64,000 nt of DNA, taken from contig JAFXTU010000059.1 in NCBI GenBank assembly GCA_017535635.1, positions 62,001 to 126,000 on the forward strand, written 5' to 3'. A program made the position numbers and the translations under genes. Each line of letters opens with the position of its first letter. Position 1 is the stretch's first letter. Below the pieces are notes generated by a model, which was not told where the DNA came from, ran no database searches, and saw nothing but the letters and a program-made list of their open reading frames with translations. Shown piece by piece: positions 9,399 through 13,097 of this stretch. Source of the DNA: Oscillospiraceae bacterium. Its GTDB lineage: Bacteria > Bacillota > Clostridia > Oscillospirales > Oscillospiraceae.

Positions 9399-10247
9399 TC
9401 AGACCGTCCCGCTGACCGTGAGGGTCACGGTGCCGGGAGTGATGGTCCAGATGCCGGTCTCGTCCTGGACAAAGGTCGCCGCCGGAACGGTGATCGCACC
9501 GGGATTCGTGACAAAAACACCGGTCTGCGTATCATAAGTGTACTGGTCGGTTTTGATCGTGCCGCCGCCGATGGACACGAAGATATCCTGCAGGATCGGC
9601 TCGAAGGTATCGCTGACGGAGAGGTTCTCCCCTGCTTCCGCCGCCGCTGCGCCGTAGTTGGCGATCACAAAGGTGTAGGTCAGGGTCCCGTTTTCCGTCA
9701 CGGTCTCGGGACTGACAAATTTGGAGATAGTGAGGTTCACACCTCCGGCGGGCAGAACGGTCTCACTGGCCGTGACCGGCGCCGCCAGGCCGCCCTGGGC
9801 GAGGGTCGCCGTATTCACGATCCCGGTCCCGCCCTCCAGAGGAGCGTACTCATTGGCGGTAACCGTATAGACCAGCTGCACGCTTCCCTCCGCCGGGACG
9901 GTGATGCCCGTCACAACGAGGGGCGGGCCGACGGTCACGGCGGGAGCAGCCTGGACCACGCCGTCGATCAGGTACAGGAGGGAGCCCGCTTCATACGTGA
10001 GGGGCGTCACCGTCCCGCTCCCTATGTCGTAGGCTCCCAGGTCGTCGGTGAGCGTCAGGCCGGTGAAGGACTCCGTCCCGGCATTCACGATGCTCACCAC
10101 ATAGGTTACGTCCTCACCGGGGGCATAGGTCGGACTCACGGCGGTTTTCGTCATCTGAAGCGCCTCCACGATCTCCCCGGTCACCAGATTGGAGAGAGTG
10201 GATCCGCCGTTGTAGCTCAGCTTTGCGAAGTTCTGAAAGGTTGCCAT
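9399..10247 (-). CDS. DUF11-repeat protein without signal peptide
   Basis: A 282-residue, beta-rich, Thr/Val/Gly-rich acidic protein with two DUF11-like repeats: about 33-165 (TKTAVSPTYAPGEDVTYVV, then VNTATLA) and about 170-282 (SKFVSPETVTENGTLTYTF). These Ig-like modules are usually surface structural domains. No signal peptide, membrane helix or sorting signal is visible. Similar Clostridia proteins start with a TFxNFAxLSYNGG-type segment, as here (ATFQNFAKLSYNGG). Release by mother-cell lysis, for instance as a spore-surface protein, is one explanation; that is speculation. ATG 10247 has GAGGAG seven bases upstream. Confidence 0.7.
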   Translation of the reverse strand: MATFQNFAKLSYNGGSTLSNLVTGEIVEALQMTKTAVSPTYAPGEDVTYVVSIVNAGTESFTGLTLTDDLGAYDIGSGTVTPLTYEAGSLLYLIDGVVQAAPAVTVGPPLVVTGITVPAEGSVQLVYTVTANEYAPLEGGTGIVNTATLAQGGLAAPVTASETVLPAGGVNLTISKFVSPETVTENGTLTYTFVIANYGAAAAEAGENLSVSDTFEPILQDIFVSIGGGTIKTDQYTYDTQTGVFVTNPGAITVPAATFVQDETGIWTITPGTVTLTVSGTV

Positions 10248-10342
10248 TTTGATTCTCCTCATGCGTCATTGGAGCCTTCCGGTTCCGGCTCATCCTATGC
10301 CCGACACCGCCTCCGGGTGACCATGCATCCCGGGAATGCGGA

Positions 10343-10371
10343 TTGACTTCCCGGAGGTTTGCGGCTACAAT
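10343..10371 (+). promoter_or_regulatory. Promoter for the small alarmone synthetase gene
   Basis: TTGACT (10343-10348) and TACAAT (10366-10371) with a 17-bp spacer, 24 bp upstream of the ATG. Confidence 0.75.
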
Positions 10372-10395
10372 GGAGGGGTAAGGAGGTGCAACGAT

Positions 10396-11139
10396 ATGCC
10401 CCAGGACGATTCTCTGTCTCAGAGCATCCACGACCTGCTTCCCGGGACCGGGGACCGGATCATCACCCTGGAACAGGTGCAGGAGCTGAACAAGCTGATG
10501 TCATATTATCGCTGTGCCATGATGGAGGTGGTCACGAAATTTAATGTATTGAACGAGCAGTTTTCCCTTCAATTCGACCGCAACCCGATCACGGGCATCA
10601 AGAGCCGCCTGAAAACCATCCGCAGCATCCATGACAAGCTGGAACGGCGAGGGCTCCCCTTCTCCCTGGAATCCATTGAGGAGAATCTGAACGATGTAGC
10701 CGGGGTCCGGGTCATCTGTTCCTTTACCGAGGACGTTCATATGCTGTCGGAGGCGCTGATGCAGCAGGACGACATCCAGCTCATCGAACGGAAGGACTAC
10801 ATCCTCAACCCCAAGCCCAACGGCTACCGCAGCCTGCACCTGATCGTTTCGGTTCCGATCTTCCTGGCCCACGAAAAGAAGTTCATGCGGGTGGAGATCC
10901 AGCTGCGGACCCTGGCCATGGACTTCTGGGCTACTCTGGAGCATCAGCTCCGCTATAAAAAGGACTTTGATTTTGCCGAGAGCATGGGGCGGGAGCTTTA
11001 TACCTGCGCCCAGCTCAGCGCGGAGCTGGACGAGCGGATGGACGGACTTCGGGAGCTGGTGCAGAAGCAGACAAGCGGCGGGGCCGGCATCCCTGAGCCG
11101 CGCCGCCGCTGGGTGGACCAGAGTCACAACCTCCGCTGA
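10396..11139 (+). CDS. Small alarmone synthetase, RelA/SpoT domain (RelQ/YjbM-like)
   Basis: A 247-residue stand-alone (p)ppGpp synthetase with no HD hydrolase, TGS or ACT domain. Typical synthetase motifs are present: IKSRLKTIRSIHDKLERR (substrate-binding basic loop), LNDVAGVRVICSFTEDV, YILNPKPNGYRSLHL and VEIQLRTLAMDFWATLEHQL with the metal-binding Glu. It transfers pyrophosphate from ATP to GDP or GTP in the cytoplasm. The ATG at 10396 has AAGGAGGTG seven bases upstream. It is a single-gene unit, with its own promoter and a terminator at 11161. Confidence 0.9.
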   Translation: MPQDDSLSQSIHDLLPGTGDRIITLEQVQELNKLMSYYRCAMMEVVTKFNVLNEQFSLQFDRNPITGIKSRLKTIRSIHDKLERRGLPFSLESIEENLNDVAGVRVICSFTEDVHMLSEALMQQDDIQLIERKDYILNPKPNGYRSLHLIVSVPIFLAHEKKFMRVEIQLRTLAMDFWATLEHQLRYKKDFDFAESMGRELYTCAQLSAELDERMDGLRELVQKQTSGGAGIPEPRRRWVDQSHNLR

Positions 11140-11223: not shown

Positions 11224-11252
11224 TTGACACTTCGGTCATACTATGGTAAATT
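11224..11252 (+). promoter_or_regulatory. Promoter of the glnS leader transcript
   Basis: TTGACA (11224-11229) and TAAATT (11247-11252), 17 bp apart. It lies about 160 bp upstream of glnS, leaving room for the leader described at 11283-11399. Confidence 0.75.
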
Positions 11253-11282
11253 ATCAATTACAGCATATGGGAGGACAAATTC

Positions 11283-11327
11283 ATGCTTTGCTTTACTTTT
11301 CGACAGCAGCGGCCCGCCGGGATCTAG
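11283..11327 (+). CDS. Putative glnS leader peptide (14 aa, tandem Gln codons)
   Basis: GGGAGGA (11269-11275) lies seven bases before ATG CTT TGC, which encodes MLCFTFRQQRPAGI and stops at TAG 11325. Residues 8 and 9 are consecutive Gln codons (CAG CAG, 11304-11309). The peptide sits between a strong promoter and an intrinsic terminator located just before glnS, the usual layout of amino-acid biosynthesis or aminoacyl-tRNA synthetase attenuators controlled by ribosome stalling. Its expression and role are inferred. Confidence 0.6.
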   Translation: MLCFTFRQQRPAGI

Positions 11328-11363
11328 CAGGCCCTAACCTTCCGTATCCGAATGTTCTGACGG

Positions 11364-11399
11364 CGGTATGGCCCTGCGCCATACCGATTCTTTTTCTTT
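11364..11399 (+). terminator. Attenuator terminator in the glnS leader
   Basis: A 9-bp stem CGGTATGGC/GCCATACCG (11364-11372 with 11378-11386, loop CCTGC) is followed by ATTCTTTTTCTTT. It ends 12 bases before the glnS ATG, so full termination here would block glnS. CCGTATC at 11343-11349 can pair with GGTATGG of the stem's 5' arm, with two G-U pairs, giving a possible anti-terminator. Confidence 0.7.
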
Positions 11400-11411
11400 G
11401 GGGGTAAAACG

Positions 11412-13097
11412 ATGGACAGCAGCGAGAGCAGAAATTTTATTGAGCAGTTCGTAACCGAGGACCTGGCGCCCGGCGGCGCTTACGAAGGCAAGCAGGTCCA
11501 CACCCGCTTCCCGCCGGAGCCCAACGGATATCTGCACATCGGTCATGCCAAGGCCCTCTGCATCGACTTCGGGACAGCGGAGAAATTCGGCGGCATCACC
11601 AACCTGCGCATGGACGACACCAACCCCGCCAAGGAAGATACGGAGTACGTGGAGGCCATCCAGGACGACATCCACTGGCTGGGCTTCGACTGGGGGGACC
11701 GCTTTTTCTACGGCTCGGACTACTTCCAGCAGACCTATGAGCTGGCCGTCGGTCTGATCAAGAAGGGTCTGGCCTACGTCTGCGAGCTGAGCCCGGAGGA
11801 ATTCAAACTCAACCGGGGCGACATCGGCGTGCCCGCCGTCTCCCCCTGGCGGGATCGGCCCGTGGAGGAATCCCTGGACCTCTTCGAACGGATGAAGAAG
11901 GGGGAATTCGCCGAGGGAAGCATGACCCTTCGTGCGAAGATCGACCTTAGCAGCGGCAACTTCAATCTGCGGGACCCGGTGCTCTACCGCATCCGCTATA
12001 TCGAGCACCACCGGCAGGGCACCAAGTGGTGCATTTTCCCCATGTATGACTTCGCCCACCCCATTCAGGACGCCATTGAGGGCATCACCCACTCTCTCTG
12101 CTCCCTGGAGTACGAGGAGCACCGCCCCCTCTACGACTGGGTGGTGGAGCATGTGGACCTGCCCGGGGACGTGAAGCCCCGGCAGATCGAATTCGCCCGC
12201 CTGGGCATCAACTACACCGTCATGAGCAAGCGGAAGCTCCGCAGGCTGGTGGAGGACAAGGTGGTCTCCGGCTGGGACGACCCCAGGATGCCCACCCTCT
12301 GCGGTCTGCGCCGCCGGGGCTACACCGCCAGGAGCATCCGCAATTTCTGTGACCGCATCGGCGTAGCCAAGGTGAATTCCACCGTGGACTGGGCCTTCCT
12401 GGAGTCCTGCGTCCGGGAGGACCTGAACCAGAATGCCGACCGGGTCATGGCGGTGCTCCACCCCCTGCGCCTCACCGTGACAAACTATCCCCAGGGACAG
12501 ACGGAGACGGTGCAGGTGGAGAATAATCCCCTGAAACCGGAGGCCGGGACGAGGCCGGTGAGCTTCTCCCGGAGCCTCTGGATCGAGGCCACGGATTTCG
12601 AGGAAGTTCCTCCCAAGAAGTACAACCGGCTTTATCCCGGAAACGAGGTGCGCCTGAAGGGCGCCTATGTGGTGCGCTGCACCGGCTGCGTCAAGGATAG
12701 CCTTGGCCACATCACGGAGGTCCTCTGTGAATACGACCCGGATTCCCGGGGTGGGGACCCGGCGGATGGGAGGAAGATCAAGGGCACCATCCACTGGGTG
12801 GACGCCCTGAGCGCGATCCCGGCGGAGGTGCGGCTCTACGACAGCCTGTTCAGCGACCCGGACCCGGACGGTCCCGGCAAGGACTTTTTGCAGCTGCTGA
12901 ACCCCAACAGTTTGCTGGTGCTGGAGGACTGCAAGCTGGAGGCCTGTCTTAAGGAGGCAAAGGCCCCGGAGCGCTGCGAATCGGCCCGGGGCTATCAGTT
13001 CATGCGCACGGGTTATTTCTGCCCGGACAGCGACTGCCGCCCCGATCACCTGGTCTTCAACCAGATAGTGGCCCTGAAGGACAGCTACAAGAAATAA
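11412..13097 (+). CDS. glnS: Glutaminyl-tRNA synthetase
   Basis: A 561-residue class I aminoacyl-tRNA synthetase that charges tRNA-Gln directly. The HIGH-type motif is in PPEPNGYLHIGHAKA (about 34-48) and the KMSKS-type loop is VMSKRKL (about 269). MDDTNPAKED and DLPGDVKPRQIEFARL-type segments separate GlnRS from GluRS. C-terminal anticodon-binding beta-barrels follow from about 340. Most Firmicutes make Gln-tRNA by the GatCAB route, so glnS in Clostridia is a lineage-specific addition (established knowledge). GGGGG lies seven bases before the ATG. Expression is probably controlled by the leader attenuator. Confidence 0.93.
   Translation: MDSSESRNFIEQFVTEDLAPGGAYEGKQVHTRFPPEPNGYLHIGHAKALCIDFGTAEKFGGITNLRMDDTNPAKEDTEYVEAIQDDIHWLGFDWGDRFFYGSDYFQQTYELAVGLIKKGLAYVCELSPEEFKLNRGDIGVPAVSPWRDRPVEESLDLFERMKKGEFAEGSMTLRAKIDLSSGNFNLRDPVLYRIRYIEHHRQGTKWCIFPMYDFAHPIQDAIEGITHSLCSLEYEEHRPLYDWVVEHVDLPGDVKPRQIEFARLGINYTVMSKRKLRRLVEDKVVSGWDDPRMPTLCGLRRRGYTARSIRNFCDRIGVAKVNSTVDWAFLESCVREDLNQNADRVMAVLHPLRLTVTNYPQGQTETVQVENNPLKPEAGTRPVSFSRSLWIEATDFEEVPPKKYNRLYPGNEVRLKGAYVVRCTGCVKDSLGHITEVLCEYDPDSRGGDPADGRKIKGTIHWVDALSAIPAEVRLYDSLFSDPDPDGPGKDFLQLLNPNSLLVLEDCKLEACLKEAKAPERCESARGYQFMRTGYFCPDSDCRPDHLVFNQIVALKDSYKK

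Follow-up and report, generated by a model that had tools for sequence, protein, structure and literature searches.

The leader of glnS, the gene for glutaminyl-tRNA synthetase (GlnRS), in a 64,000-nucleotide stretch of DNA from an Oscillospiraceae bacterium (the window, meaning the whole stretch analysed; its genome, G000, is a 2.0-Mb assembly in 61 contigs) is very probably a ribosome-mediated transcription attenuator of the trp/pheST type, predicted to sense charged tRNA-Gln. A promoter, a Shine-Dalgarno (SD) sequence, an ATG followed by five codons and by Arg-Gln-Gln (RQQ), a hairpin and a terminator precede glnS in 7/7 genomes of the genus, which are related and amount to few independent observations, and in one genome of another, related genus (G007). 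The parts and their order are conserved, the Gln codons are invariant, and hairpin 1 and terminator covary within the genus. As judged from these sequence comparisons, the module is real, conserved and lineage-restricted, its bearers being a small set of gut Oscillospiraceae (Clostridia). Its components in the window are listed in Table 1.

Table 1. Components of the glnS leader and the gene that follows it, in window coordinates
Feature	Position	Strand	Conservation or remark
Sigma-70 type promoter TTGACA-17-TAAATT, extended -10	11224..11252	+	TTGACA kept in 7/7 genus genomes
Promoter boxes TTGACA and TAAATT, 17-nt spacer	11224..11229 and 11247..11252	+	TAAATT preceded by TG
Leader-peptide SD, GGGAGGA	11269..11275	+	GGAG invariant in 7/7 genus genomes
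Leader ORF MLCFTFRQQRPAGI, 14 codons, ATG 11283, stop TAG 11325-11327	11283..11327	+	ATG and 15-nt spacing to CGACAGCAG same in 8 genomes
CGA CAG CAG, Arg and two putative sensor Gln codons	11301..11309	+	identical in 8/8 leaders
Hairpin 1 (segment 1:2), starts at second CAG	11308..11335	+	covariation in relatives; stable in 7 of them, weak in the window
Segment 2, hairpin 1 3' arm and next bases; candidate antiterminator strand against 11364-11373	11330..11339	+	
CCGTATC, second candidate antiterminator strand, pairs with GGTATGG 11365-11371	11342..11348	+	
Intrinsic terminator, 9-bp stem CGGTATGGC/GCCATACCG, loop 5, T-rich tail	11364..11396	+	5' arm is segment 3; hairpin proper 11364-11386, then T-rich tail
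SD of glnS, GGGGG	11400..11404	+	
glnS, glutaminyl-tRNA synthetase, 561 aa, ATG 11412	11412..13097	+	TIGR00440, PF00749, PF03950, PF20974

The promoter, the leader SD, the 14-codon ORF with two adjacent Gln codons, the terminator and the glnS ATG of the original prediction are all found where it had put them; CCGTATC, placed at 11343-11349, was off by one. The identity of GlnS is supported by the family profile search (TIGR00440, 691 bits vs. a cut-off of 425.8). Judged from the window alone the leader is unconvincing, and it is the comparison with relatives that makes the case strong. The fold of the whole leader in the window is uninformative (z = 0.04), and terminator-like matches occur in the window at background frequency (5 found, 4.0 expected). 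ORFs and terminators of such size arise by chance, and the unremarkable fold would suit a fixed partial terminator beside a fortuitous short ORF, damping glnS constantly and sensing nothing. This is very improbable, RQQ being invariant at a fixed position in eight genomes of two genera, with a covarying hairpin exactly behind it.

The putative leader ORF, with an SD directly upstream, is kept in eight genomes, and consists in all eight leaders of ATG, 15 nt and CGACAGCAG, the distance from ATG to RQQ being fixed at five codons. The peptides of the six other genus genomes are MTLFCFRQQRPGVN, MTLFVFRQQRPYLLK, MVFCAFRQQRPARI, MALWMDRQQGGRRLRLPHRA, MALWMDRQQGGRRQRLPHRA and MTLWMDRQQGGRR, that of G007 is MRAMIFRQQLRRPVFPGALACRAFYAP. 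Identity is 100% over CGACAGCAG in 8/8 leaders; codons 2-6, ahead of it, share 43%, and the 9 nt behind it 41%. The pattern GGAG-N5-9-ATG-N15-CGNCARCAR has exactly one match in each of the seven genus genomes, and this match lies at glnS. A reversed control pattern gives roughly 0.1 match per whole genome, hence chance matches in the 200 bp next to glnS are expected at an order of 1e-5 per genome. The original prediction would have been refuted by relatives keeping the hairpin and lacking the peptide or its Gln codons; none was found, and 7/7 terminator-bearing relatives keep ATG, five codons and RQQ with CGACAGCAG.

The tandem codons CAG CAG, invariant in 8/8 leaders, are cognate to the downstream gene, glnS; that there are only two of them is a point against attenuation. 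The Arg codon ahead of them is always CGA, at 11301-11303 in the window as in the seven relatives. In 41 window ORFs, one of them a shadow ORF opposite glnS that introduces a small bias, CAG accounts for 91% of Gln codons, and CGA, a rare codon, for 4.4% of Arg codons. An RNA pairing accounting for the invariant CGA was looked for, and none was found. TnaC and SpeFL are arrest peptides at which ribosome stalling responds to a metabolite, and the leader peptide might likewise arrest the ribosome through its own sequence, the nascent RQQ with its CGA-encoded Arg causing a stall in response to free glutamine or another metabolite rather than for lack of charged tRNA. In favour of this, the Arg varies no more than the Gln codons do and is always encoded by the same rare triplet, and the five-codon spacing is the same in 8/8 leaders. 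Yet known arrest peptides conserve longer stretches, residues ahead of RQQ vary here (LCFTF, ALWMD, RAMIF), and Gln codons ahead of the gene for the Gln synthetase suit the simpler model of codon stalling; we regard an arrest peptide as highly unlikely.

CGACAGCAG is conserved at the nucleotide level, wobble positions included, as would be expected of an RNA motif in a tRNA- or protein-binding switch (T-box-like, or autoregulation by GlnRS) to which the ORF is incidental. Against this, CAG is the dominant Gln codon anyway; SD, ATG and the frame to CAGCAG are kept in 8/8 leaders while the intervening 15 nt vary; and no T-box is found in the window at gathering threshold, though the genus has detectable T-boxes at other loci. 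The chance that the leader is such a switch seems slight.

A conserved hairpin overlooked in the original prediction, hairpin 1, directly follows the Gln codons. In the alignment of the seven genus sequences four of its eight pairs are changed on both sides (CG/GU, GC/UA, AU/GC, GC/UA). Hairpin 1 and terminator together feature 12 two-sided cells, vs. 5.1 in shuffles (0/500), and 93% of their cells are paired, a share that falls to 40% or less once the partner is slid. The terminator, kept in all leaders, has taken alone 100% of cells paired and one pair with two-sided changes. In relatives the stability of hairpin 1 exceeds that of dinucleotide shuffles, the fraction of shuffles as stable ranging from 0 to 0.054 (combined P about 2e-5 over five representatives); the hairpin 1 of the window itself is weak (-9.5 vs. 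a shuffle mean of -10.2). A hairpin 1:2 with its 5' arm at the Gln codons and an intrinsic terminator 3:4 ahead of the gene are both found, and stalling on the Gln codons would place the ribosome over the 5' arm of hairpin 1.

Two conserved pairings that might act as antiterminator exist, neither of them above shuffled controls. In the first, candidate (i), the partner of the terminator 5' arm is the hairpin 1 3' arm. In G178, G267 and G228 this pairing is TGCCGCA/TGCGGCA, with -15.5 kcal/mol vs. -16.5 for the terminator; in G007 it takes the form of a long composite helix, and it is shorter in the clade of the window (82% of cells paired, vs. at most 51% when slid). In the second, candidate (ii), CCGTATC pairs with GGTATGG, with 93.5% of cells paired vs. 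at most 46%. Covariation above column shuffles was detected for neither candidate, and in the simulated stalled state the probability that segment 3 is paired showed no excess over shuffled linkers for either. On the assumption that the footprint reaches 12-15 nt past the A-site codon, a ribosome that has reached the leader stop codon of the window would cover the RNA to about 11339-11342, masking (i) and not (ii), and for this reason candidate (i) is favoured as the switching element, with the hairpin 1 3' arm as the probable main antiterminator strand. The pairing of CCGTATC with the terminator 5' arm, proposed originally, is conserved, but lies in the window just outside the footprint of the stop-codon ribosome, and is probably not the sole or main antiterminator. 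Sequestration of the SD (11265-11274 with 11338-11347, 10 bp in the window) was also considered; similar pairings occur in several leaders, do not stand out clearly from shuffles (P 0.055 to 0.39), and were set aside.

The classical attenuation layout originally proposed, a Gln leader peptide and a terminator before glnS, is at the level of sequence supported by eight genomes. From it we infer translation of the peptide, stalling, an operating antiterminator pairing and a regulatory response. RNA polymerase would start near 11259, and a ribosome would translate the leader peptide. With ample Gln-tRNA the ribosome would pass CAG CAG, reach the stop codon and cover segment 2, and the terminator hairpin would form. 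With Gln-tRNA scarce it would stall on the CAG codons and occlude the hairpin 1 5' arm; its 3' partner and the strand downstream, left free, would then capture the terminator 5' arm, allowing read-through into glnS. Where the peptide is not translated hairpin 1 would form, and termination would be favoured.

The closest GlnS relatives of the window are from Oscillospiraceae. In the GlnS tree G007 groups with G057 beside the genus (81/93 support at that fork), and G057 has glnS behind a short plain leader. The presence of the module in G007 and its absence from G057 imply either one loss in G057 or two gains, and the plain leader of G057 indicates that the system is dispensable. Short plain glnS leaders are found in most other genera, and about 60 more glnS upstream regions of the family yielded no further members. 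Searched with a covariance model, 394 genomes of the order yielded the window and G007 only, and a second set of 149 genomes no other member; matches in G519 are terminator look-alikes behind repeated coding sequence. When 300 family genomes were searched with the leader DNA, good alignments were obtained with two genus members, and two more matches were short and in other contexts. Elsewhere in the family none of 30 fetched loci with the RQQ pattern encodes GlnS, many being the starts of ordinary proteins, and the one useful match is G007. An N-terminus of the form MDIHxxRQQLRTKSxYDIxLRVTYYARVS recurs in several Oscillospiraceae (L168, L184 and pattern matches), and by eye resembles that of a mobile-element serine recombinase. 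In several other genera, L006, L010, L195 and L247 feature a single strong hairpin immediately behind the glnS promoter and no leader ORF, and at some of these loci a T run comes after the hairpin; it may be an attenuator of a different type or serve to stabilise the 5' end.

The absence of T-box features at glnS, as originally claimed, is borne out: the Rfam T-box model (RF00230) has no match at gathering threshold in the glnS leader or the window, and finds 5-7 T-boxes per genome elsewhere in the genus. Genes downstream of T-boxes, identified by eye from translated frames, are tyrS, pheS, trpE and an AMP-ligase-like gene in the genome of the window, and in relatives valS, divergent from glnS. 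At L088, L089, L090, L091, L092 and L094 the T-box leader lies upstream of glnS on the opposite strand, followed by valS where the downstream frame was translated. The window differs, the upstream neighbour of glnS being a same-strand gene for a RelA/SpoT-domain protein (10336-11139); a DUF11-repeat protein is encoded on the minus strand (9399-10262) between tgt and the RelA/SpoT-domain gene.

GatB_N (PF02934) was found in none of the seven genus genomes, while controls were positive in 12/14; the genus genomes are 70-90% complete, and gaps alone are unlikely to cause absence from 7/7. The result points to GlnRS as the only route to Gln-tRNA, and GlnRS is probably the sole source of Gln-tRNA in the genus. 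There is a small chance that the Arg(CGA)-Gln-Gln stretch itself, beyond codon hunger, stalls the ribosome, and is a glutamine-responsive nascent-peptide sensor for this probably sole source.

The preferred reading, a leader peptide sensing charged tRNA-Gln, has known counterparts. Firmicutes synthetase genes are mostly controlled by T-boxes, and none was known in 2005 to be under classical attenuation; in Streptomyces, trpS and leuS were predicted to lie behind classical attenuators, and pheST was cited for gammaproteobacteria (PMC1262725). The glnS leader shares with the E. coli pheST and the Streptomyces trpS and leuS attenuators a short peptide with cognate codons, a terminator before the synthetase gene and candidate alternative pairings, and differs from them in the amino acid, Gln, in the clostridial host and in the invariant Arg CGA ahead of the Gln codons (PMC1262725). 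His leader peptides were predicted in 2010 ahead of hisZ and hisS* in bacilli (PMC2965389), again ribosome-mediated attenuation before a Firmicutes synthetase-family gene; there the amino acid is His and the lineage different, and the likeness is drawn from the description rather than from sequences. The glnS switch, originally called unusual, is so for a Firmicutes synthetase, but the hisS/hisZ leader peptides of bacilli had been predicted earlier (PMC2965389). With the trp operon attenuator (trpL) it has in common the order of its parts, with tandem codons in segment 1, a stop codon near segments 1/2, and predicted mutually exclusive pairings 1:2, 2:3 and 3:4; trpL precedes a biosynthetic operon, the glnS leader a synthetase gene, and here the 2:3 pairing is less certain. 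A regulatory RNA or attenuator structure has been predicted by RSSVM before glnS of Shewanella, a gammaproteobacterium, and the excerpt of that paper (PMC2659441) names no Gln leader peptide. In the 2008 T-box survey all genomes but one lacked GlnRS (PMC2494555). No Gln leader peptide was found in the open-licence literature searched. Most likely the amino acid and the lineage are new, and the kind of mechanism, as predicted here, is already known.

T-box riboswitches, which do the same job of linking tRNA charging to synthetase expression, serve valS, tyrS and pheS in the genus; the glnS leader lacks the T-box signature, and a translating ribosome would be the sensor. A single genus would use T-boxes for valS, tyrS and pheS, and a leader peptide for glnS. 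In this lineage, which has GlnRS and no detectable GatB, the supply of Gln-tRNA probably hangs on glnS alone.
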